A DNA stretch of 31,280 nt, taken from a virus. The notes below the pieces were generated by a model. That model worked only from the letters and a program-made list of their open reading frames with translations. It searched no databases and had not been told where the DNA came from. Location: positions 1 to 31,280 of the IMG/VR virus record IMGVR_UViG_3300050166_000167; one strand, 5' to 3'. Every line of letters starts with the position of its first letter. The first letter of the stretch is position 1. Below, in pieces: positions 4,264 through 18,790 of this stretch. The translations under genes were made by a program, and so were the position numbers.

Positions 4264-5553
4264 TCAGACTCCTGCGATGACCTGTGCATCCACCACCGGA
4301 TAGCCTGCATCGGCTGCAGCGTTCATGGCGCGGGTGACCAGGTTGTTGACGATCAGCGGATAGCAAATGCTCTGTGCATCGGTGGGCTTGCCGCCGCGCG
4401 GCAAATGGATCAAGCGGGCGCGGATGGCATCCGCTGCATCGGGTGCAAACACCTGGTCCAGCTTGAGGCCAAAGCGAGCAAACTTGTGCGCCAGGTACGG
4501 GCCCACATCGGCATCCAGCGGGGCCAGCTCAATCAGCTCGCAGCGCTGGGTGACCTCGCGCACCTCGGGGCCAGCGTTCAGCAGGCGGCTGCGCAGCTCT
4601 GTTTGGCCGATCAGCGCCACGCCCAGCAGGGGCCGCATGCCGTCTTTCAGCTCAATGAAGCGCTTGAGGTGCTTGAGCGTGGCAATCGGCAGGCAGTGCG
4701 CCTCTTCGATCAGCAGCAGGTGCTGACGCCCACTGCGTGCGCTTTGCTGAAGCATGGTGTGCAGCTGGCGCATCAAGGCATCGGGGCTGCTCTTGCAAGT
4801 GACCGTCTCGTCCAAAGTGCGGATGATGGCGCGGGCAATCTCGCCACTCTTGAGCGTCTTGCCCTTGGTGTCTGACAGCTCCATCTGCAGAACGTACGGG
4901 CGGATAACCAGCACATCGCGCCGGTCGTCAATGATGCGCTGCTCCAAGTCTTCGGCCAGCGTGCTCTTGCCCGCACCGCTCTCGCCAGTGATGGCCACAA
5001 AGCCGTGGTGCAAGGCCGCGTCCAGCAGCACGGTGCGCACGTAGCGCACGTTGGCGGTCTGGAACACGTCGGCACTCGTCTGCACATCACGGGTAAATGG
5101 GTCACGCGGCAAATTGAAGTGCTGGCGTGCGGCTTGTGTCAGGGTCTGTTTTTGGAGTAGCATGGGAACGTCCTCTTCGGTAGTGATTGCTGGGGTGGAT
5201 GGAGCTGCGGGAACTGCCTCCCTGGCGATCGCAGCGTTTTTGCGCCCGGGGCTCATTGCAAGTGAGCCTTGGGCGTTTTCTTTGGTGCTGGCCAGCGTGG
5301 CCAGCTCATGGATGCGGACCAGCTCGCGCTGGGCCTTGCGCACACGCACCAGGCTCTCGCCACGGGCCTCCAGCAGCACACGCAAGTCGTCTTGCATCCG
5401 TGCATGTCGCTCTGCGTCTTGCATGGGCGTGCCCGCATTGACATAGCGTTTCAACGTGGCATCGCTCACGCCCAGCAGGCGGGCCGCATCGCGTTGCGTC
5501 AGCAACAAGTTGTCCAGCATCTGGCGCATCTGGGTGGGTTTGGCTTGGGTCAT
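4264..5553 (-). CDS. Transposition AAA+ ATPase (MuB/TniB-like)
   Basis: A 429-residue AAA+ ATPase and partner of the transposase. The N-terminus carries a helix-turn-helix (LLTQRDAARLLGVSDATLKR, residues 17-36). Walker A is GESGAGKS at about 190-197 and Walker B is LLLIEEAH at about 279-286, followed by an IGQTELR sensor-like segment. In Mu and BcepMu this ATPase binds target DNA, stimulates the transposase and gives target immunity. The ATG at 5553 overlaps the transposase stop (ATGA). The frame stays open for another 51 codons upstream, but that stretch is the antisense-like shadow of the transposase 3' end and is rejected as a start. Confidence 0.92.
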   Translation of the reverse strand: MTQAKPTQMRQMLDNLLLTQRDAARLLGVSDATLKRYVNAGTPMQDAERHARMQDDLRVLLEARGESLVRVRKAQRELVRIHELATLASTKENAQGSLAMSPGRKNAAIAREAVPAAPSTPAITTEEDVPMLLQKQTLTQAARQHFNLPRDPFTRDVQTSADVFQTANVRYVRTVLLDAALHHGFVAITGESGAGKSTLAEDLEQRIIDDRRDVLVIRPYVLQMELSDTKGKTLKSGEIARAIIRTLDETVTCKSSPDALMRQLHTMLQQSARSGRQHLLLIEEAHCLPIATLKHLKRFIELKDGMRPLLGVALIGQTELRSRLLNAGPEVREVTQRCELIELAPLDADVGPYLAHKFARFGLKLDQVFAPDAADAIRARLIHLPRGGKPTDAQSICYPLIVNNLVTRAMNAAADAGYPVVDAQVIAGV

Positions 5554-7406
5554 CGCGCACCCCCTGCCACCACCTGCAAGCCAGCACGCACCAGCGTGCG
5601 GGCCTTGATCTGCTCCAGCGCATCCTCTGGCACACCAGCGGCATGGTCGGCCTTCAGGCGGGCAAAGCCTGCGGCGTCGAGCTTGCAGCCGTTGCGGGCC
5701 AGCCACTGCATGGCTTCAAAGTGGGTCAACACCCGCGCAGCTGGGGCGCTGGCAGCCGTGGTCACCGCAGTGCTCACATTCGGCACCACTGCTGCACCCT
5801 TGCGGTCCATCCAGGTGCGCTCTGGCGCTTGCTCAATCACCTTGAACGGGTCAATGCGCCCGCCAAATGGCACCGCCTTGGCTTTCAATTTGGCCTCGGC
5901 CTCTTCGTTGGTGGCGGCGTCCATGGCGATGCGCTGCACCTGCTCGCGGTTGTCTTCCAGCACCGTGCGTGGGGCTTGCTTCCAGTCCTCGCCAATCACA
6001 TTGGCCGTGGTGGCAAAGCCTGCATCGTCTTTGGCCACCACCGGCACCTGGTGCAGTGTTTCATGGCCATCGGCATCGCGCAGCACCACCACGGCGCCGT
6101 CTACCTGCCAGGGGTTCAGGGCCAGCTGCAGCTGCTCGCCCACCATCACGCCAGGTACGGTGCTCACATCAAATTCGCGGCCCTTGTAATTGACGCGCAG
6201 CTTGTCGGTCACCTTGCGGGACTCGGGCTGGTCGTTGACCAAGGCGCGGCAATGCTCCAGCGGTGGTGCAATGCGCAGCTGGTCAGCGGTGATCGTCATC
6301 CACATGTCGTAGCGCGTGCGTGCATGGCGGCTGTGCAGGCGGTTGGCGTTGAACCACCGGGCCCACCGCTGCGCCTGCGCATTCAGCTCGTCCAGGCTTT
6401 GCACAGGCTGAAAGCGCAGCGCACTCTCAAAGCTCTTTTCGATCAAGTCACGAGCTTTTTCAACCTGGCCAGTGGCGCGGGCATTGCCTGCAGCGTGGGC
6501 AATCGTTTCCACACCCAGGCGGCGAGTCAGGTTGGCAAAGTTGCCACTGGTGTTGGCGCTGCCCATGTCCATCATCAAGATGCGCGGCACCCCGTGGAAA
6601 GGATCGCCATCACGCTTACTGATGCCGAAGAGGAAAGACTCAATCAAATTGGCCGCACTCTCGGCACCCAACACATAGTGCACCCCAATGGAGCCACTGT
6701 AGTGGTCGGTCCACTCATAAGACCACACCCGGTCAGACTCAATGCGCTTGAGGTTGGCAGGCTTGTTTTTGTAAAAGGCCTTGTGCTGCATGACCTGCAA
6801 GCCAGACTCTTTGGGCGTCTTGGCGTCCAGGTAATACAGCACGCACATGCTGGCGTCGATCTGCCACACATGGTTGGGGTGCAGGCTGCGCAGCTCCAGC
6901 GCAGGGCTGGCGCGGTTGATCTGGTCAGGGTGCAGGCCATAGCCGCGCAAGGCACTGGCTACTGCGCTCTCACTCAGGGGCACCACCTCACCCGTGGCTG
7001 CGTCGGTGCGCTCGGCACGCACCTCGTTGTTGGCGCGCAATTGTTCCAGGGCGTCTTTCATGCTCAGCAGGCGCTTGCCCGTCTTGCGGTGGCTGGCCAT
7101 CAGGTACGCGCTGATGGTGGCAGCCTCTGCCAGGCTCAGGCTCACAGCACCGGCGTCGGCGCGCTGCTTGCGCTGGGGGCGCACCGCCACCTGCGCCATG
7201 TAGCGGTGCAGCGTGGCCTGGTTGATGCCCAAGTCCTTGCACGCCTGCGCATAAATGGCACCCTTTTGCCCATGCGCCGCAGCCGCTGCCTGCTGCACCA
7301 CAGCCTGCACGCTTTGTGCCATGAGGGGGGTAAGAGCCATATCGGGTGCCTGCTGTGCGGGTATGCGGGTGGGTGCGCTGGTGTGGGGGCTCAGGCGTTG
7401 GCCCAT
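5550..7406 (-). CDS. DDE transposase (MuA/TnsB-like)
   Basis: A 618-residue transposase that cuts and joins phage ends during integration and replicative transposition. The catalytic triad is visible: Asp184 in WQIDAS, Asp280 in LMMDMGSANT and Glu316 in GQVEKARD, with 35 residues between the last two, the classic DD35E spacing of the retroviral-integrase fold. The N-terminus has a helix-turn-helix (ACKDLGINQATLHRYM), and a beta-barrel region lies around residues 400-480 (KLRVNYKGREFDVSTVPGV). The start at 7406 has GAGGTGG in front and overlaps the upstream gene by 16 bases; an ATG 22 codons in is the alternative. It is more like BcepMu/TnsB-type proteins than MuA itself. Confidence 0.93.
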   Translation of the reverse strand: MGQRLSPHTSAPTRIPAQQAPDMALTPLMAQSVQAVVQQAAAAAHGQKGAIYAQACKDLGINQATLHRYMAQVAVRPQRKQRADAGAVSLSLAEAATISAYLMASHRKTGKRLLSMKDALEQLRANNEVRAERTDAATGEVVPLSESAVASALRGYGLHPDQINRASPALELRSLHPNHVWQIDASMCVLYYLDAKTPKESGLQVMQHKAFYKNKPANLKRIESDRVWSYEWTDHYSGSIGVHYVLGAESAANLIESFLFGISKRDGDPFHGVPRILMMDMGSANTSGNFANLTRRLGVETIAHAAGNARATGQVEKARDLIEKSFESALRFQPVQSLDELNAQAQRWARWFNANRLHSRHARTRYDMWMTITADQLRIAPPLEHCRALVNDQPESRKVTDKLRVNYKGREFDVSTVPGVMVGEQLQLALNPWQVDGAVVVLRDADGHETLHQVPVVAKDDAGFATTANVIGEDWKQAPRTVLEDNREQVQRIAMDAATNEEAEAKLKAKAVPFGGRIDPFKVIEQAPERTWMDRKGAAVVPNVSTAVTTAASAPAARVLTHFEAMQWLARNGCKLDAAGFARLKADHAAGVPEDALEQIKARTLVRAGLQVVAGGAR

Positions 7407-8311
7407 TGCGCCACCTCGGCTGCCAGTTGTTCGTCTGCCGCATTGCTCACATCGGGCAGGTTGAACTTTTCGCGGATGGCGTTGATCTCGGCCTGCAGCT
7501 GGCCCACCATGCCAGCCATGGTCACCATGACAGCATCGCCCCTGTGCGTCAGGTAGTGCTGGGTCAAAGCATCCAGGCTGGCCCGCACCTTGCCGCGCAC
7601 CATGCCCAGGGCCTCTGTGGCGTACTCTTGGGCTTCTTTGGTCAGGTCCACCAGCACCGCATCTGGCTCTTGCGTCTGGATGCGTTTGGCCTGTATTTGC
7701 AGCTTGGTCAGCTTCTTGCTTAAGTCGGCCCGCGCATCCTCGCCCGCCTGGTGCTCAGCCTTCAGCTCGCGCAGCGCGGTGCGCAGCTCTTTCACGCTCA
7801 TGGTGGCCACATCGTCCAGGCTCAGCTCGCCCGTTTGCCCAAAGTTGGCCAGCTCGTCAATCTGCTCGTCGTCCAAAACCAACATCTCGAACAGCTTGGA
7901 TTGGCCACCTATGGCATCCGTCAAATGTCTCGACGTCGAGACATTTGAAAATTTGGTGGCCGATTGCATGAACTTCACAGCAACCTTGCGATCTATGCCC
8001 AGAACATCCAAGCGGGCAATGAAGTTGCCAGGGCCGCAAGCCGCCTTCAGCACCGCCAGCCCACGCCCCACCTCCAGGCAAGCCTCCACGCTGCGGCGCA
8101 TGTTGGCCGCAATGTCGCGCTGGATCAGGTCCGGGTCTGTGGCGTCAGCGGGCAGCTGGTAGCCCAGCGTGGCCGCTGTGGCACGCACCAGGGCGTTTTG
8201 CTCCTGGTTGTGGGCCACCAGGGCATTGGCGCTGGTGCTGAGCTGGTCAATGGCCTGTGTGTTGGCATCAATGACCGTGGTGTTGGCGGGGGCGGTGGGT
8301 TTGCGTGACAT
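7391..8311 (-). CDS. DUF3102-like early phage protein
   Basis: A 306-residue protein directly upstream of the transposase. Residues 65-125 have the pattern NMRRSVEACLEVGRGLAVLKAACGPGNFIARLDVLGIDRKVAVKFM, which resembles DUF3102/ParB-type helix-turn-helix proteins. A conserved-looking LDDEQIDELANFGQTGELSLDDVATMSV follows, then a long coiled coil (about 170-230). It is probably a DNA-binding protein working with the transposition genes, but that is inferred. A 28-base perfect palindrome lies inside the coding sequence and encodes SNVSTSRHLT, at the linker between the HTH-like part and the rest. The ATG at 8311 lacks an obvious Shine-Dalgarno. Confidence 0.75.
   Translation of the reverse strand: MSRKPTAPANTTVIDANTQAIDQLSTSANALVAHNQEQNALVRATAATLGYQLPADATDPDLIQRDIAANMRRSVEACLEVGRGLAVLKAACGPGNFIARLDVLGIDRKVAVKFMQSATKFSNVSTSRHLTDAIGGQSKLFEMLVLDDEQIDELANFGQTGELSLDDVATMSVKELRTALRELKAEHQAGEDARADLSKKLTKLQIQAKRIQTQEPDAVLVDLTKEAQEYATEALGMVRGKVRASLDALTQHYLTHRGDAVMVTMAGMVGQLQAEINAIREKFNLPDVSNAADEQLAAEVAQWANA
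7921..7948. repeat. 28-bp perfect palindrome inside a coding sequence
   Basis: The 14 bases from 7921 (TCAAATGTCTCGAC) are followed directly by their exact reverse complement, giving 28 bases with no mismatch and no spacer. The centre contains GACGTC. It lies within the DUF3102-like gene. There is no T tract, so it is not a terminator; a protein-binding or recombination site, or an RNA hairpin, is possible. Confidence 0.95.
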
Positions 8312-8347: not shown

Positions 8348-8656
8348 TTAAGCGGCGCGGGTGTAGCGCTGCTGCAGGTCGGACAGCTGCTTTTGGGCTT
8401 GGTCAAAAGCGGCCAACGTGGCCACGGCCTTGCTGCCCAGGCGGGGGCTGATGCGGGCACGGTCGCTGCCGGGTAGGCGCTCCACCAGGCCAGCGGCTTC
8501 CAGGTTCCAGAGGTCGCGGGTGATCTGTGCAGGCTTGATGCCCAGGCCCTTGGCCATTTGGCTGGGGCTCAGGCCATCAATCTCGTGGCCAAACAGGCCC
8601 ATCAGCACTTTCAGCACGCGCTGCTGCGCCTCGCAGCGGTAGTTGGGGCCGGTCAT
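8348..8656 (-). CDS. Winged-helix DNA-binding protein (MarR/IclR-like)
   Basis: A 102-residue protein with a winged helix-turn-helix: QRVLKVLMGLFGHEIDGLSPSQMAKGLGIKPAQITRDLWNLEAAGLVERL, followed by a short helical end. SPSQMAKGLGIKPAQITRDL is the recognition unit and GLVERLPGSDRARI the wing. It overlaps the preceding gene by four bases. Next to a Ner-like protein and upstream of the transposase, it is well placed to control early transcription, but its binding site is not identified. Confidence 0.72.
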   Translation of the reverse strand: MTGPNYRCEAQQRVLKVLMGLFGHEIDGLSPSQMAKGLGIKPAQITRDLWNLEAAGLVERLPGSDRARISPRLGSKAVATLAAFDQAQKQLSDLQQRYTRAA

Positions 8657-9567: not shown

Positions 9568-10035
9568 GTGAAAAAAGATAAAAAATTTTTCTATGGTCAT
9601 TCACGACTCATTGAAGAGCGCGAAAAAATATGGTCGACCCAACAGCAGGCCGCCGATTACTTCGGGGTAAGCCGTGTGACTTGGGGGCAATGCGAAAGGG
9701 GAAACGCCACCCCAAGCGGTGATGTCCTTGCTGGTCTTGCAGATATGGGTGCTGACGTGCACTACATCCTCACCGGCCAGCGCAGCCAGGCCGTGGCTGA
9801 GGTGGACTTGCTGCCCTCAGACGAGCGCGTGCTGGTGGACGCCTACAGGCACTGCAACGTGCAGGCCAAGCAGGCCTTGATCCAGACTGCCGCGCTGCTG
9901 TCGGCGGGCATGGCTGCGCCCAGCAAAGCGGCCAAGGCCAGCAAGAGCGTCAAGTTAGGCGGCTCGGTGTCGGGCAACGCTGTGGTGGTGGCGGGCACAG
10001 TTGCTGGGGGCATTGCCAATGGCCGCAAAAAATGA
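9568..10035 (+). CDS. HTH (XRE-like) phage regulator with Gly/Val tail
   Basis: A 155-residue protein starting at GTG with AAGG upstream. Residues 10-70 are an XRE-type helix-turn-helix (RLIEEREKIWSTQQQAADYF, then GVSRVTWGQCERGNATPSGD, then VHYILTGQRS), as in CI-like phage regulators. A helical stretch follows, then an Ala/Lys-rich linker and a C-terminal tail (131-149) with GGSVxxxAVVxxGTVxG. The same motif opens the next protein. Its position opposite the early operon, with inverted repeats in front, makes it the best candidate for the phage repressor. No protease-like cleavage domain is visible, so classical RecA-driven cleavage is not suggested. Confidence 0.8.
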   Translation: MKKDKKFFYGHSRLIEEREKIWSTQQQAADYFGVSRVTWGQCERGNATPSGDVLAGLADMGADVHYILTGQRSQAVAEVDLLPSDERVLVDAYRHCNVQAKQALIQTAALLSAGMAAPSKAAKASKSVKLGGSVSGNAVVVAGTVAGGIANGRKK

Positions 10036-10384: not shown

Positions 10385-11803
10385 ATGGACTCAGGAACAA
10401 AAAATTTGCTGACACTCGCGGCCTTGGTGCTGTTGCCTGCTTTTTGGATGCTGAGAGCCAAATGGCTGCGGCAGGCGCATGCCAACACGGTCGCCCTTAC
10501 GCATGCCAAAAATGCCTTGTCTGAATCGGAGCAAAAGTACAAATCCCTTCAGAGTGCACACAAGGAAGAAACTGCAACACTGCAGGCTGAGATAGCCAAA
10601 TTAACCCACCGTTTGGCTGAACATGGACATCTCAACATCATGGAGTTAGAGGCTCAAAAAAGTGCACTCCAAAATGAGTTGACTCAGCTTGAGCAGCAGT
10701 GCGTCTCTGAACAGGAAAAAGCAAAGGCTGAACTTGCTCATGCGCAAACCGAGTTAAAAGTCCTGCGAATGCAAATTGTGGAGACTGAAGAAATTTCCTT
10801 GCTGCAGGATGTTGGGGTTTATCAATACCGCCATCCGCTCTCTGATGCCGTTGCCTATCAGCGAGAGCTAAACAGCATCGAGACTCGCATCAAAGCCTTC
10901 ATGAAAAATGATGACAGCGCCGTTATGGGCGCCACCAATTGGACCGTCAATGGCTCCCTGGTGCAGGGCCGAAGGATGGTGAATGAAACATCCAAGCTCA
11001 TGCTACGGGCGTTCAACGCCGAAGCCGACAATGCAGTGCGAAGCCTCAAGCCATACAAGCTAGATGCTGCCATTGATCGGTTGACAAAAGTTGCTGGAAC
11101 GATTGCCCGATTGGGTAAGACCATGGACATACGCGTTACCGATGCGTATCTGAGGCTGCGTATTCAGGAACTGGAGCTGACCGCTGATTTTTCACACAAA
11201 GCAGCAGAAGAAAAAGAGCTTGAACGTGCTGAGCGTGATCGCATGCGAGAAGAGCGCAAAGCGCAGCTAGAGCTGGAGCGTGAACGAACCCGGCTGGAAA
11301 AAGAACGCCAACATTTTGAGAATGCACTGAATGCTCTGATTCAGAAAGGTGATGAAAACGGTGCAGCCCGCCTTCGTGAGCAACTTGATGATGTACAGAG
11401 AGCAATTGAAGACGTTGACTATCGGACTGCAAACATCCGTGCTGGCTACGTGTATGTGATTTCAAATATTGGGGCATTTGGCGAAGACATGGTGAAGATC
11501 GGCATGACGCGACGGCTTGACCCAATGGATCGTGTGCGTGAATTAGGAGATGCCTCGGTCCCATTCAATTTTGATGTTCATGCTTTGTTTTTCTCCAAAG
11601 ATGCAGTGGGTATTGAAACTGCCATGCATCAGCGGCTGGCAGCTCATCGAGTTAACCGTGTCAACCTGCGGCGTGAGTTTTTTAAGGTAACCCCTCATGA
11701 TGCAAAAGCGCAACTGACGGAGTTGACGGGTGAACTATTGCAATTCACTGATACGCCCGAGGCGGTTGAATATCGGGAGAGCTTGGCGCTGGCTGCGGTT
11801 TGA
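10385..11803 (+). CDS. Membrane-anchored DUF4041 / T5orf172 (GIY-YIG-like) protein
   Basis: A 472-residue protein. Residues 7-22 are one hydrophobic segment (LLTLAALVLLPAFWML), then come a coiled coil (about 35-130), a DUF4041-like middle (about 140-255), a charged coiled coil rich in Glu/Arg (270-330) and a T5orf172 domain (about 350-440). That domain shows GYVYVISN, KIGMTRR, an ETAMHQRL helix and REFFKV, the GIY-YIG-like core. The family is found in phages and mobile elements; biochemical activity is not settled. It sits between the regulator and lysis genes, a usual site for lysogenic accessory genes, and is more AT-rich than the late genes, which suggests separate acquisition. Superinfection exclusion or defence is plausible but unproven. 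Confidence 0.82.
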   Translation: MDSGTKNLLTLAALVLLPAFWMLRAKWLRQAHANTVALTHAKNALSESEQKYKSLQSAHKEETATLQAEIAKLTHRLAEHGHLNIMELEAQKSALQNELTQLEQQCVSEQEKAKAELAHAQTELKVLRMQIVETEEISLLQDVGVYQYRHPLSDAVAYQRELNSIETRIKAFMKNDDSAVMGATNWTVNGSLVQGRRMVNETSKLMLRAFNAEADNAVRSLKPYKLDAAIDRLTKVAGTIARLGKTMDIRVTDAYLRLRIQELELTADFSHKAAEEKELERAERDRMREERKAQLELERERTRLEKERQHFENALNALIQKGDENGAARLREQLDDVQRAIEDVDYRTANIRAGYVYVISNIGAFGEDMVKIGMTRRLDPMDRVRELGDASVPFNFDVHALFFSKDAVGIETAMHQRLAAHRVNRVNLRREFFKVTPHDAKAQLTELTGELLQFTDTPEAVEYRESLALAAV

Positions 11804-14867: not shown

Positions 14868-16055
14868 ATGTCTGAAGCACATTTGAATATCAACCTCAAG
14901 CCCGTCGATGACGCCAACCCCGTGCCCGTCAAACTGATAGGCGGCACCAGCAGCAATGGTGGAGGAGGTGGCAGCGGCATCATCGGCGTGGATACCGAGG
15001 GCACCAAGTGGCTACTTGTTGCCAACACAAGCGCTACGCCCGCGACCATCACTTACTACAAAGTAAGCGACGGCACAGTCGGCACGCCGTCGGGTGGATT
15101 CACCCCCGACGCTGATCAAAATGGGCTGACCGATACGCAGCTCCGCGCATCAGCTGTGCCAGTGTCTGCGACATCACTCCCGCTGCCTGCTGGTGCAGCT
15201 ACAGATGCATCGCTTGGCACAGACGGCACCACACCCCCAACCATTGCTGGCACAGGCGTGCGTGGCTGGCTCCGCGGCATTTACGAAAAATTGACTGGGA
15301 CGTTGACCGTCACAGGCCCGCTGACCGATACGCAGCTTCGGGCATCAGCTGTGGTCGTGTCTGCGAACAACAATGTACTGCAATCAGTCAACAACACGTC
15401 GACTGCTCAATTGGCGGCTGCTGCCACCTTCACAGGCACTTGGGACAGCGGAGATGCGCTGCTGGCCGAATCTGCGCAGCTCATGGTGACGAGTGACCAG
15501 ACTGGTACCTTGTACATCGACCAGTCGCAAGATACGGCGGGCTCCGTCGGGGTACAGACCAAAAGCTACGCCATAACGGCGGGTGTTGCATTCAATACCG
15601 CCATCGGCGTCATTGGCAAAGCCCTTCGAGTTCGCTTCACCAACAATGGGTCAGCTGCGACGACCACGTTTGCGATCAGTACGATCTTCACGCCCATCAT
15701 GAGCGTCTTGCCTACAGCGCTCACGCAAAAAGGCAGTTTGCGCACCGCTAATCAAGAAAATGTGTCGGTGACGCTGACACAAAACGTCAAGTCCCTCACC
15801 GCAAGCACATCGACCGAACTGGTCGCGGCCAACTCAAGCCGCCAGTATTTGGCAATCCAGGTCATCGGCACCTCGGGCATCAACTTGAATATCGGCGCAG
15901 ACGCCACGGTCAACAGCGGCTGGGCAATTTCGCCGGCAAGCGCTACAGGCGGTCAGGGCGGGGCAATGACGTGGGATGCTGGCGTGGTCACGCAGCAACA
16001 GATCAAGGCCATCAGCGCCGCTGCGACGACGGTTGTTGTTTGGGAAGGAATTTAA
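14868..16055 (+). CDS. Repeat-bearing virion structural protein (head fibre/decoration-like)
   Basis: A 395-residue protein with a strong Shine-Dalgarno (AAAGGACG). It is Thr/Ser/Ala/Gly-rich with beta-strand composition and contains the unit LTDTQLRASA twice (about residues 87 and 152), encoded by a 47-base direct repeat. This unit occurs in many phage structural proteins. A Gly-rich stretch (SSNGGGGGSG) lies near the N-terminus. Placed with the esterase protein between lysis and packaging genes, it may form part of a surface fibre; this is inference. No enzymatic motif seen. Confidence 0.6.
   Translation: MSEAHLNINLKPVDDANPVPVKLIGGTSSNGGGGGSGIIGVDTEGTKWLLVANTSATPATITYYKVSDGTVGTPSGGFTPDADQNGLTDTQLRASAVPVSATSLPLPAGAATDASLGTDGTTPPTIAGTGVRGWLRGIYEKLTGTLTVTGPLTDTQLRASAVVVSANNNVLQSVNNTSTAQLAAAATFTGTWDSGDALLAESAQLMVTSDQTGTLYIDQSQDTAGSVGVQTKSYAITAGVAFNTAIGVIGKALRVRFTNNGSAATTTFAISTIFTPIMSVLPTALTQKGSLRTANQENVSVTLTQNVKSLTASTSTELVAANSSRQYLAIQVIGTSGINLNIGADATVNSGWAISPASATGGQGGAMTWDAGVVTQQQIKAISAAATTVVVWEGI
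15125..15171 (+). repeat. Direct repeat, unit 1 (47 bp)
   Basis: Begins GCTGACCGATACGCAGCT and recurs at 15320-15366 with a few substitutions. Both copies are in the same frame and encode LTDTQLRASAV. Confidence 0.8.
15320..15366 (+). repeat. Direct repeat, unit 2 (47 bp)
   Basis: Second copy of the repeat at 15125, 195 bases downstream, a multiple of three, so the duplication keeps the reading frame. Confidence 0.8.
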
Positions 16056-16057
16056 CC

Positions 16058-18790
16058 ATGGCTGCATCTCTGCCTCCAGTTGACCTGTCAAAGACAAAAA
16101 GTCTTGTGCCTGATTACTACTACGTCATTGTGGTGGCGGGGCAGTCAAACACTTGTTACGGTGAGGGCCAAGCCTTCCCCGACACCTATGACTCAGTGCA
16201 TCCACGAATCAAACAGCTCGCGCGGCGCACCAACACCAAGACATCAAGCACCACAGGCAATGTGGCATGCTCCTACAACGACATCATCCCCTTGGACTGG
16301 TGCCCGCACGGTGTTGAGGACATGGCCGCACGTGGGCACGCGGCCGCAATTGCAGCAGATGCTCGCCAATATGGCTGCGTGAGCTTTGCGCAAAGTCTGG
16401 CCAAACGCTTGCTGCCATCGCTACCCGATAACGCGGGAATTTTGATTGTGTCCACCACACGGGGCGGGTCTGCGTTTACGCAAGGGACTGACCAGGCATA
16501 TAGCGCAACCACAGGTGCGCCTGCATCATCGACCCGATGGGGTATCACTGGAGGCTTGGCTTCCAACGGCGGAAAAACAGCGCTCTACCTCGACATGCGT
16601 GACCGCACCAAGGCGGCACTGAACAAAAACCCACAAAACATTTTGTTGGCGGTGGTTTGGATGCAGGGCGAGTTTGACCAAACGGGCACACCAGGCAATC
16701 ACAAGTCGATGTTTGAGGCGCAGGTCAACGATTTCCGAACCGAGCTCAACAACACAAACCGCGCCCAGTGTTTGGGGCTTGACGCTGCTAAGGTGCCATG
16801 GATTTGCGGGGACACCACCATTTATTTTCAAAGCAGCGTCGCCAACTTCACGCAGGTGTACGAGGGAACGTACCTCAACACCACTTTGAGCAATGTGTAC
16901 TACACCCGTGTGGGTAAGGACGAACTGGGCAACTGGACTGCCACAAACGCCGTTGCAGATGACCCCGATGTTGTCGTCGGTGTGCCTGCGACGCTGGCGA
17001 ATATCACCAGCTCTTTGGTCGGCGCAACGCTTGGCGGCGCCAACTTGGCGTCAGGGGGCGCAACGGTATCGAGCTGGACAGTAGGCGCAACAGAGACAAC
17101 AGCTTGGCTACTTTTGGTTGATGCAGGCTTTACCAAGGGCGTCAAAGTCGCATTTAGCACAGACAACTCAGGGCAATTGCTGGTGCGCGCAACCGATGCA
17201 GCCTACGCAACGGGGTCTGTGATTGCAACATGGGATGCCGCAACAAAAACCACGGGCACTGTGGTTACCACGGATGCGGGGGCAGGGTACGGCGTAAAGA
17301 CGCTGACCATCAACGGTACAGTCGTCAATCCTGCTGGCTACGTGACCGCCACCGCCACCACGGCGGTAGCCAACGTCTCTACGTCAAAGGCTTACTACGG
17401 GTCAGCCAGCCGCACCTCCTCGGACTGGATCAGCAGCACACGCAACAGCCACTTCTCGAGCTGGGCGCATCGCACGATCATCGCGGAAAGATTTTCTGCG
17501 GCCATCACTCAAACAGCGGGTCGCTTGCTGCCTGGCATTACCTCGCCAAAGGCGGGTGGTGCGCCGAGCAGTTATGTGCAGGGCGTGAGCCTGTCTGGCT
17601 CCAACATTGTGGTGAGCACACGCAACGACATCACGGGGGGCACGGCGACTGCAAATATCCCCATCCCAGCCACTTCGGTGGTGAATTACGCACCGTCTAT
17701 CCTGACCGTGGGCTACAACAGCCGCCGTGGTGATGGCACGATGAAGGCGCAGGGCTTTACGGGCTCGCTGGAGTTTGCCGCCAACACGGCTGCCATTGCA
17801 GGGGCTACGGTCATCGATGGAGCCGCCGCAAATAATCTGTACACGCTGACGAATGCAATCACGCATCCCGATGGTCAAGGGGGGTACACCTACAGGCACA
17901 TGGTCACCACGGTTGGCAATGGTGAGTGGTACAAGACCAATGCGGGTGTGAACATTGCCGACCTTGCCAAGCTCATCACGTTTGGTGGTTCTGCGCAAGT
18001 CCGCGCCAAAATCACCGACGCGTATGTGGCGCAGTTCATGGCGGCACTGATTGCCATCGTGCATGACGGCAACACCTTGCTACCAGTAGGTAGCCTCACT
18101 GGTGTGCAGGGCACGGGCAACAACAAGCTGGCGTTTTTGGGACACTTCATTCAAGCCAAGCAGAATGGCGCTGTGAACAGTATTTACCTCTCCGCATGGC
18201 AAAACGGCGGTAACGTTGATCTGGTCAATATCCCGTTTGACAACAATTACCATGACTACAAACTGGCGTTTGCGGGCGGGGGCACACCGTCTATCACCCC
18301 GTCGATCGATAGCGTGGTGGGTACCGCACGGGCGCTGCACTATACCGGTGCAGCCAATGCGGCATATGCCACGGTGGCCGCAGCAGACACGACCACCAAG
18401 CTGGCTATAACAGACATTACGGGGAGTAGCTTGTCGCTGGGGTTTAACTTGGACACGCTCCAGTTCGTTATCTACCAAGACAACGGCAACATTGCGCTGT
18501 CGGGCATTGACGCAAATCACTCTGTCACACTGCAAAAGTACGCCCGCAGCCACACCATCACCATCCCCGATTTTGCGATCAGCCCGGGCAAGTCGATTGA
18601 GATCACGGCAGAAAACACCGGCAATGTGGTGGTGCAAGGGGCCAATAGCAATGTGCTGATTCAGCCGCTGGGCGGATCAATACCATTACCTTCTGCGGTG
18701 ACGATTGTCCGCGCAAGTGCAGATGCCCGCGCCACGTACAAGTTCACGCAGATCAGCGCCGACGGCAAGACGTGGGTGAGGACGGCGTGA
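16058..18790 (+). CDS. Large SGNH/sialate-O-acetylesterase-like fibre protein
   Basis: A 910-residue protein from ATG 16058 with GGAAGGA upstream; an in-frame start inside the previous gene is rejected. Residues 20-210 carry SGNH-esterase blocks: VVAGQSNTCYGEG with nucleophile Ser30, and VVWMQGEFDQTG at 200-210, as in carbohydrate acetylesterases (SASA/CE6-like). A possible final block, NSHFSSWAHRTIIAERFSAAI, puts the His at 465, so about 170 residues of beta-rich sequence seem to be inserted (about 285-455). The Asp usually three before that His is absent. The last 430 residues are beta-rich, with a jelly-roll-like flavour, ending YKFTQISADGKTWVRT. Likely an enzyme acting on acetylated cell-surface sugars during adsorption. 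Confidence 0.75.
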   Translation: MAASLPPVDLSKTKSLVPDYYYVIVVAGQSNTCYGEGQAFPDTYDSVHPRIKQLARRTNTKTSSTTGNVACSYNDIIPLDWCPHGVEDMAARGHAAAIAADARQYGCVSFAQSLAKRLLPSLPDNAGILIVSTTRGGSAFTQGTDQAYSATTGAPASSTRWGITGGLASNGGKTALYLDMRDRTKAALNKNPQNILLAVVWMQGEFDQTGTPGNHKSMFEAQVNDFRTELNNTNRAQCLGLDAAKVPWICGDTTIYFQSSVANFTQVYEGTYLNTTLSNVYYTRVGKDELGNWTATNAVADDPDVVVGVPATLANITSSLVGATLGGANLASGGATVSSWTVGATETTAWLLLVDAGFTKGVKVAFSTDNSGQLLVRATDAAYATGSVIATWDAATKTTGTVVTTDAGAGYGVKTLTINGTVVNPAGYVTATATTAVANVSTSKAYYGSASRTSSDWISSTRNSHFSSWAHRTIIAERFSAAITQTAGRLLPGITSPKAGGAPSSYVQGVSLSGSNIVVSTRNDITGGTATANIPIPATSVVNYAPSILTVGYNSRRGDGTMKAQGFTGSLEFAANTAAIAGATVIDGAAANNLYTLTNAITHPDGQGGYTYRHMVTTVGNGEWYKTNAGVNIADLAKLITFGGSAQVRAKITDAYVAQFMAALIAIVHDGNTLLPVGSLTGVQGTGNNKLAFLGHFIQAKQNGAVNSIYLSAWQNGGNVDLVNIPFDNNYHDYKLAFAGGGTPSITPSIDSVVGTARALHYTGAANAAYATVAAADTTTKLAITDITGSSLSLGFNLDTLQFVIYQDNGNIALSGIDANHSVTLQKYARSHTITIPDFAISPGKSIEITAENTGNVVVQGANSNVLIQPLGGSIPLPSAVTIVRASADARATYKFTQISADGKTWVRTA

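Follow-up and report, generated by a model that had tools for sequence, protein, structure and literature searches.

A DNA site lying inside the gene for its own reader has a precedent in Bacillus subtilis, where parS is found within parB. In ParB/Noc proteins, binding specificity resides in residues of the recognition helix and in one residue further on (173 and 201 in ParB), and the parS site is conserved across species (PMC7383237). Phages offer two further parallels. Immunity repressors and their operators diversify together rapidly between close relatives, with exchange by recombination, and Mu, itself a transposable phage, has in its early region a cis-acting internal activation sequence with a DNA-binding domain dedicated to reading it.

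We have analysed a stretch of viral DNA of 31,280 nucleotides (positions 1 to 31,280 of IMG/VR record IMGVR_UViG_3300050166_000167, here called the window), which carries a 28-bp perfect palindrome within a DUF3102-like gene. Judging from how protein and DNA vary together across relatives, this palindrome is very probably the cognate, twofold-symmetric duplex-DNA site of the DUF3102-like protein in whose gene it lies. As in ParB/Noc, specificity would depend on few positions, a pair within the recognition helix and a third approximately 26–29 residues further on. In contrast to parS, the site is long (26 bp) and diversifies very fast, and the protein differs from ParB in having long C-terminal helices and no known ParA partner. 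Unlike an immunity repressor gene, the DUF3102-like gene lies in the early leftward operon beside the transposase and not in the repressor transcript, and there is usually one site, often within coding sequence, rather than operators at divergent promoters. Compared with the Mu internal activation sequence, it is a single long perfect dyad whose predicted reader is a separate protein and not the transposase. A search of open-licence papers returned no described function or DNA target for DUF3102 or phrog_1748; the pair would provide the first DNA target, and a readable amino-acid-to-base code, for a family of unknown function encoded beside a B3-like transposase.

Results

The 306-aa window protein matches the phrog_1748 profile with an E value of 4.6e-66 over residues 1–300. 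An earlier note, made from the sequence of the window, had called the gene DUF3102-like, a label which holds at the level of the family, since PF11300 (DUF3102) matches 72 of 81 members (best 1e-8), the window protein alone being below threshold. The same note had placed the gene next to a transposase gene, and it does lie directly upstream of one: the order in the window is winged-helix regulator, DUF3102-like gene, then transposase A and B genes (Table 1), the nearby AAA protein being a transposase B-like ATPase. The transposase gene adjoins the DUF3102-like gene in 182 of 185 relatives, and the winged-helix regulator is found just upstream in 196 of 197. The relatives with annotation are transposable phages of the B3 type (B3, Ps59, Fc22, Ps60 and D14F, for example). 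This operon is the early lytic operon in the B3 family (Fc02, PMC9936078), and in B3-like genomes it is inverted relative to Mu (PMC5977238). When compared with the PDB, the transposase profile matched retroviral integrases and gave no match to MuA.

Table 1 Positions of the palindrome, its predicted reader and neighbouring genes in the window.
Feature	Position	Strand	Basis
28-bp perfect palindrome	7921..7948		perfect symmetry and family-wide symmetric covariation
Conserved dyad, inner 26 bp of the palindrome; half-site CAAATGTCTCGAC	7922-7947		
DUF3102-like (phrog_1748) gene, 306 aa; contains the palindrome and is its predicted reader	7391..8311	-	profile match and coevolution
Predicted helix-turn-helix, residues 96-120 (helices 96-104 and 108-120)	7952..8026	-	AlphaFold2 models; substitution hot spot
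Codon for K109, the residue predicted to read base -6 (C)	7985..7987	-	coevolution statistics
Codon for V112, the residue predicted to read bases -8/-7 (GT)	7976..7978	-	coevolution statistics
Codon for S138, the residue predicted to read base -2 (A)	7898..7900	-	coevolution statistics
Transposase A-like gene (phrog_310), next downstream of the DUF3102-like gene	5550..7406	-	profile match
Small winged-helix regulator (IclR/MarR-like, phrog_1368), just upstream of the DUF3102-like gene	8348..8656	-	profile match
Divergent repressor-like HTH gene; palindrome in homologues of other phages, absent here	9568..10035	+	profile match

The palindrome consists of TCAAATGTCTCGAC followed directly by GTCGAGACATTTGA, with all 14 pairs complementary and no spacer, exactly as first described, and its chance occurrence is indeed very small, 2e-4 perfect 28-bp palindromes being expected in 31 kb at the composition of the window. 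It is the longest perfect zero-spacer palindrome of the window, the runner-up having 8-bp arms. It codes for SNVSTSRHLT (residues 122–131), a stretch situated between the predicted helix-turn-helix (HTH) and the next helix. A second site was sought in the window and none was found, half-site matches being near chance level, and an exact 24-mer search of viral contigs returned no match because the arms vary.

Relatives carry a perfect or near-perfect 26-bp dyad, in which CAAA-N5-CGAC meets GTCG-N5-TTTG, and many of the 122 loci examined show, at the equivalent position, a perfect palindrome made of different bases. Scanning viral contigs with the frame CAAA-N5-CGACGTCG-N5-TTTG gave at least 128 sites. 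Among the matches listed, the five free pairs are all complementary in 81 of 128 sites (chance 1/1024), and all but one are complementary in 30 of 128; 11 sites have three or more mismatches, one of them with a DUF3102-like gene beside it, and matches of this last kind look like chance. Scans with two other cores, AGCGCT and GTCAAC, gave the same symmetric pattern. We also collected 67 distinct sites anchored on a protein motif which, having been picked after palindromic sites were seen, may favour them slightly; the tests of the recognition code below are independent of this anchoring. In these 67 sites, pairs -8 to -5 are complementary in 60–64, with three to four main pair types, the -2 pair is complementary in 65, with A-T, T-A, C-G and G-C all occurring, and the ±1 step is always a pyrimidine followed by a purine. 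Because the free bases, including those at hairpin-loop positions, vary yet stay symmetric, we infer that the palindrome acts as duplex DNA. Relatives keeping the amino acids while freely varying the bases had been named as evidence against a DNA site; what is found is that both vary and the symmetry is kept.

The arms change together with the DUF3102-like protein. Pairs of phages (L013/L018, L017/L090 and B3/Ps59) have wholly different arms despite nearly identical transposase, transposase B, 93-aa HTH protein and repressor (0.85–1.00; for the repressor, 0.99 in L013/L018 and 0.97 in L017/L090), and these pairs differ in stretch 96–120 of the DUF3102-like protein. Residue 112 is changed in 20, and residue 109 in 19, of 22 close pairs with different arms, and neither is changed in any of 20 pairs with the same arms. 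The substitution rate of the HTH is 0.347 in arm-different and 0.104 in arm-same pairs, whereas that of the C-terminal half is unchanged (0.138 and 0.146, respectively). Pairs were chosen greedily, and five of the arm-same pairs are at 72–75% identity, so the contrast is not merely one of overall closeness. Nor is the change in the HTH a by-product of linkage, as the substitution rate is the same in the seven pairs in which the site lies outside the DUF3102-like gene. We disregarded residues 122–131, which an in-gene site itself changes, making the coupling trivial. Since the collections overlap, related sequences enter some of the counts, for which reason we worked with non-redundant sets, pair designs and a held-out set. 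Both synonymous and non-synonymous divergence are raised in the HTH stretch of arm-different pairs. Between B3 (L121) and Ps59 (L118), nearly all differences fall within codons ~96–153, with the site in between, an apparent exchange of HTH and site as one cassette by recombination.

Single residues can be related to single bases or base pairs of the half-site. Residue 112 goes with bases -8/-7 (Q with GC, R with CG, K with GG, V or A with GT and S with TT), residue 109 with base -6 (R, H or P with G; K or D with C; S or T with T or C) and residue 138 with base -2 (S with A; T with T or G, the combination of T with G occurring mostly in phages with the AGCGCT core). The window protein, with 109K, 112V and 138S, fits its own site (GT, C and A). 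For pairs with equal residues 109 and 112 taken from different protein clusters, which were below 50–60% identity, bases -8 to -6 matched at 0.87–0.91 against a null mean of 0.42, and none of 2000 shuffles reached this value. Sites in the DUF3102-like gene and sites in the repressor gene match at 0.974 when the residues are the same and at 0.386 when they differ; a broader comparison of sites in different genes, which includes unassigned intergenic sites (L152/L156), gives 0.593. In held-out phages, half-sites were predicted correctly in 81 of 94, 90 of 96 and 98 of 104 cases. The residue 112 result is the informative one, because the majority base pair accounts for only 43% of this set, while at residue 109 the majority base alone gives 81%; the test of residue 138 is weaker, as two training half-sites were the ground for accepting either of two bases with T. 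Misfits to the code are L152/L156, L389 and L369. Taken with the covariation of the HTH, the code and the held-out phages lend strong support to what had been one of several suggested roles, a binding site for the very protein in which the palindrome lies.

AlphaFold2 modelled stretch 96–120 as two helices with a turn and residues 1–95 as two long helices, and the isolated domain (residues 52–178) was modelled with a pLDDT of 89. Foldseek returned nothing significant for the isolated domain (E > 1) and only coiled-coil noise for the whole protein, and PDB profile searches with the family returned nothing meaningful. VIA-align gave Z scores of 5.2–6.8 to seven ParB-family chains (Spo0J 6.8, Caulobacter ParB 6.2, Thermus Spo0J 5.9, SopB 5.4, P1 ParB 5.2), with Raf1 equal at 6.8 and values under 8 being middling for a helical domain. 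At these middling scores, the HTH fold of ParB/Noc is the best-represented structural neighbour (4umk, 6t1f, 1vz0, 3mkz, 2ntz), and the modelled DNA-binding domain most resembles ParB domains. The full protein gave no Pfam match at E <= 1e-3, the N-terminal ParB/Srx CTPase domain included, for which reason we do not file it as ParB; sequence alone would leave room for a highly diverged CTPase domain.

The relaxed site pattern was matched in 44 of the 52 records searched whole, and the eight others hold mostly variants with changed outer bases (L039, L052, L059, L119, L244) or degenerate copies (L043, L072, L081). Most complete phage records have a single site. Of 90 non-redundant single-site phages, 76 carry it in the DUF3102-like gene, 13 in the repressor gene and one elsewhere. 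In both genes it is read in the same frame and encodes a linker of the type [SATP][NK]xx(TS)xxL, and DUF3102-like genes without the site have a different linker at that place. The proposal that a linker-encoding palindrome could be tolerated as a DNA site is supported by these site-free relatives and by the repressor linker as an alternative location. In L016, L040/L100/L202 and L189, the resident protein is better matched by the in-gene site, which leaves the other as an orphan. Six host genomes yielded two exact pattern matches, both inside prophage, and none elsewhere; the palindrome is thus not a common host repeat in these genomes, an outcome that the earlier note had also considered, and a REP-type host repeat is ruled out.

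Several records carry additional palindromes of the same type. L170:3922-5806 (IMGVR_UViG_2834269220_000007) has at least eight, nearly all with different arms (among them TCGGT, TGCGG, TGTGC, GTTGC and TGTCT), four of which are in frame inside a 298-aa ORF that is BRO/antirepressor-like by eye and has no PHROG hit. An extra mid-genome site is present in L411, L177:2208-2233, L219:1336-1361 and L410:2251-2276, that of L177 and L219 lying between the head-maturation protease and major capsid genes; the extra site fits the resident protein in L410 and does not in L411. Perfect palindromes also occur among late genes (terminase/portal, tape-measure region) in L205:1758-1785, L222:5221-5246 and L194:2853-2878, slices in which no DUF3102-like gene was seen. 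L354 and L408, which are DUF3102-like phages, have a matching in-gene site, several sites with similar arms and one perfect site with different arms.

Discussion

We propose that the DUF3102-like protein would bind the palindrome as a dimer, as the symmetry suggests, with one ParB-like HTH per 13-bp half-site. According to the statistics, residue 112 would read bases -8/-7, residue 109 base -6 and residue 138 base -2. A phage would typically hold one such site in its early region, placed in a permissive protein linker, that of the DUF3102-like gene in most phages and that of the repressor in others. With the site written into the linker of the reader's own gene, residues 109–138 and the site lie within ~90 bp here, so that reader and target could move as one cassette, as appears to have happened between B3 and Ps59. 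Once the early operon is expressed, the bound site would serve for nucleation or marking in cis on the DNA of the phage itself. With so many key-lock pairs available in nature, one can test directly how DNA-binding specificity evolves, and these pairs could be a source of orthogonal protein-site combinations for the laboratory.

Other explanations of the palindrome itself account poorly for these data. An RNA hairpin in the early transcript, controlling translation or termination before the transposase gene, had been suggested in the earlier note, and the palindrome does fold at -23.3 kcal/mol (z -4.1 against shuffles), although this is expected of any perfect palindrome. The predicted loop consists of positions ±1 and ±2, so an RNA or cruciform hairpin fails to explain why -2 covaries through all four pair types; moreover, repressor-gene sites lie kilobases away on an oppositely transcribed gene and the arms track HTH residues of the DUF3102-like protein, which makes this reading extremely improbable. 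A gyrase or resolution site, likewise suggested, found no support. The site is sometimes in the repressor gene, and the genes for the repressor, the IclR-like protein, the 93-aa HTH protein and the transposase are all neighbours, any of whose products might use it as an operator. We regard this as very unlikely, given that phages with different arms share nearly identical regulators and differ in the DUF3102-like HTH, and that the code predicts sites between DUF3102-like proteins below 60% identity; the immunity repressor is rejected as the reader, since the arms differ despite nearly identical repressors and follow the DUF3102-like protein. Occurrence in different genes, orphan copies and the contig with at least eight different palindromes would suit a small mobile or self-perfecting element, made symmetric by template switching and functionless for the phage. 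There is, however, usually one copy per phage genome and none outside prophage in six host genomes, template switching in a hairpin would not correct ±2, and the idea would leave unexplained why the arms agree with HTH residues in different genes and clades; we give such an element hardly any credence.

If the DUF3102-like protein reads the palindrome, several roles can be considered. We lean, tentatively, towards a distance-tolerant parS- or enhancer-like site serving early functions, that is, lytic transposition; a plain promoter operator is less likely because the site is tolerated in genes of opposite orientation. Local regulation, with the protein acting as a repressor or roadblock on its own operon or on the repressor gene, is possible but doubtful: L171/L201 have sites immediately ahead of the DUF3102-like gene and at the transposase B start, and L158, L161 and L235 have tandem clusters near the repressor, yet a roadblock would favour one outcome of the lysis-lysogeny choice when placed in the early operon and the other when placed in the repressor gene, and the position of the site is tied to no single promoter. 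It seems somewhat unlikely that the site is a transposition enhancer or accessory site comparable to the Mu internal activation sequence, with the DUF3102-like protein as dedicated accessory factor. The near-constant adjacency to the transposase gene favours such a role, and B3-like phages are reported to encode transposition proteins different from those of Mu (PMC5977238), but nothing links the site directly to the transposition reaction.

A further and rather unlikely idea is that transposable phages use protein and site as a self-recognition tag, on which competition between phages exerts diversifying selection. A private key-lock pair would then mark or control each phage's own DNA, and foreign locks carried by some phages, single or arrayed, would be decoys for, or sensors of, the proteins of other phages, as the L170 array may be. 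The rapid co-diversification of protein and site, together with the many different sites of that array, hints at competition between phages.

Elsewhere in the window, a 472-aa ORF beside the repressor (10385-11803, plus strand), whose C-terminus is T5orf172/GIY-YIG-type by eye, is a possible accessory or defence gene. A 939-aa ORF (15971-18790, plus strand) has a VVAGQSN motif, by eye suggestive of a sialate-O-acetylesterase-like domain, and possibly encodes a tail-associated protein. Two further inverted repeats with short loops, at 1310-1349 and 30804-30838, are terminator-like.
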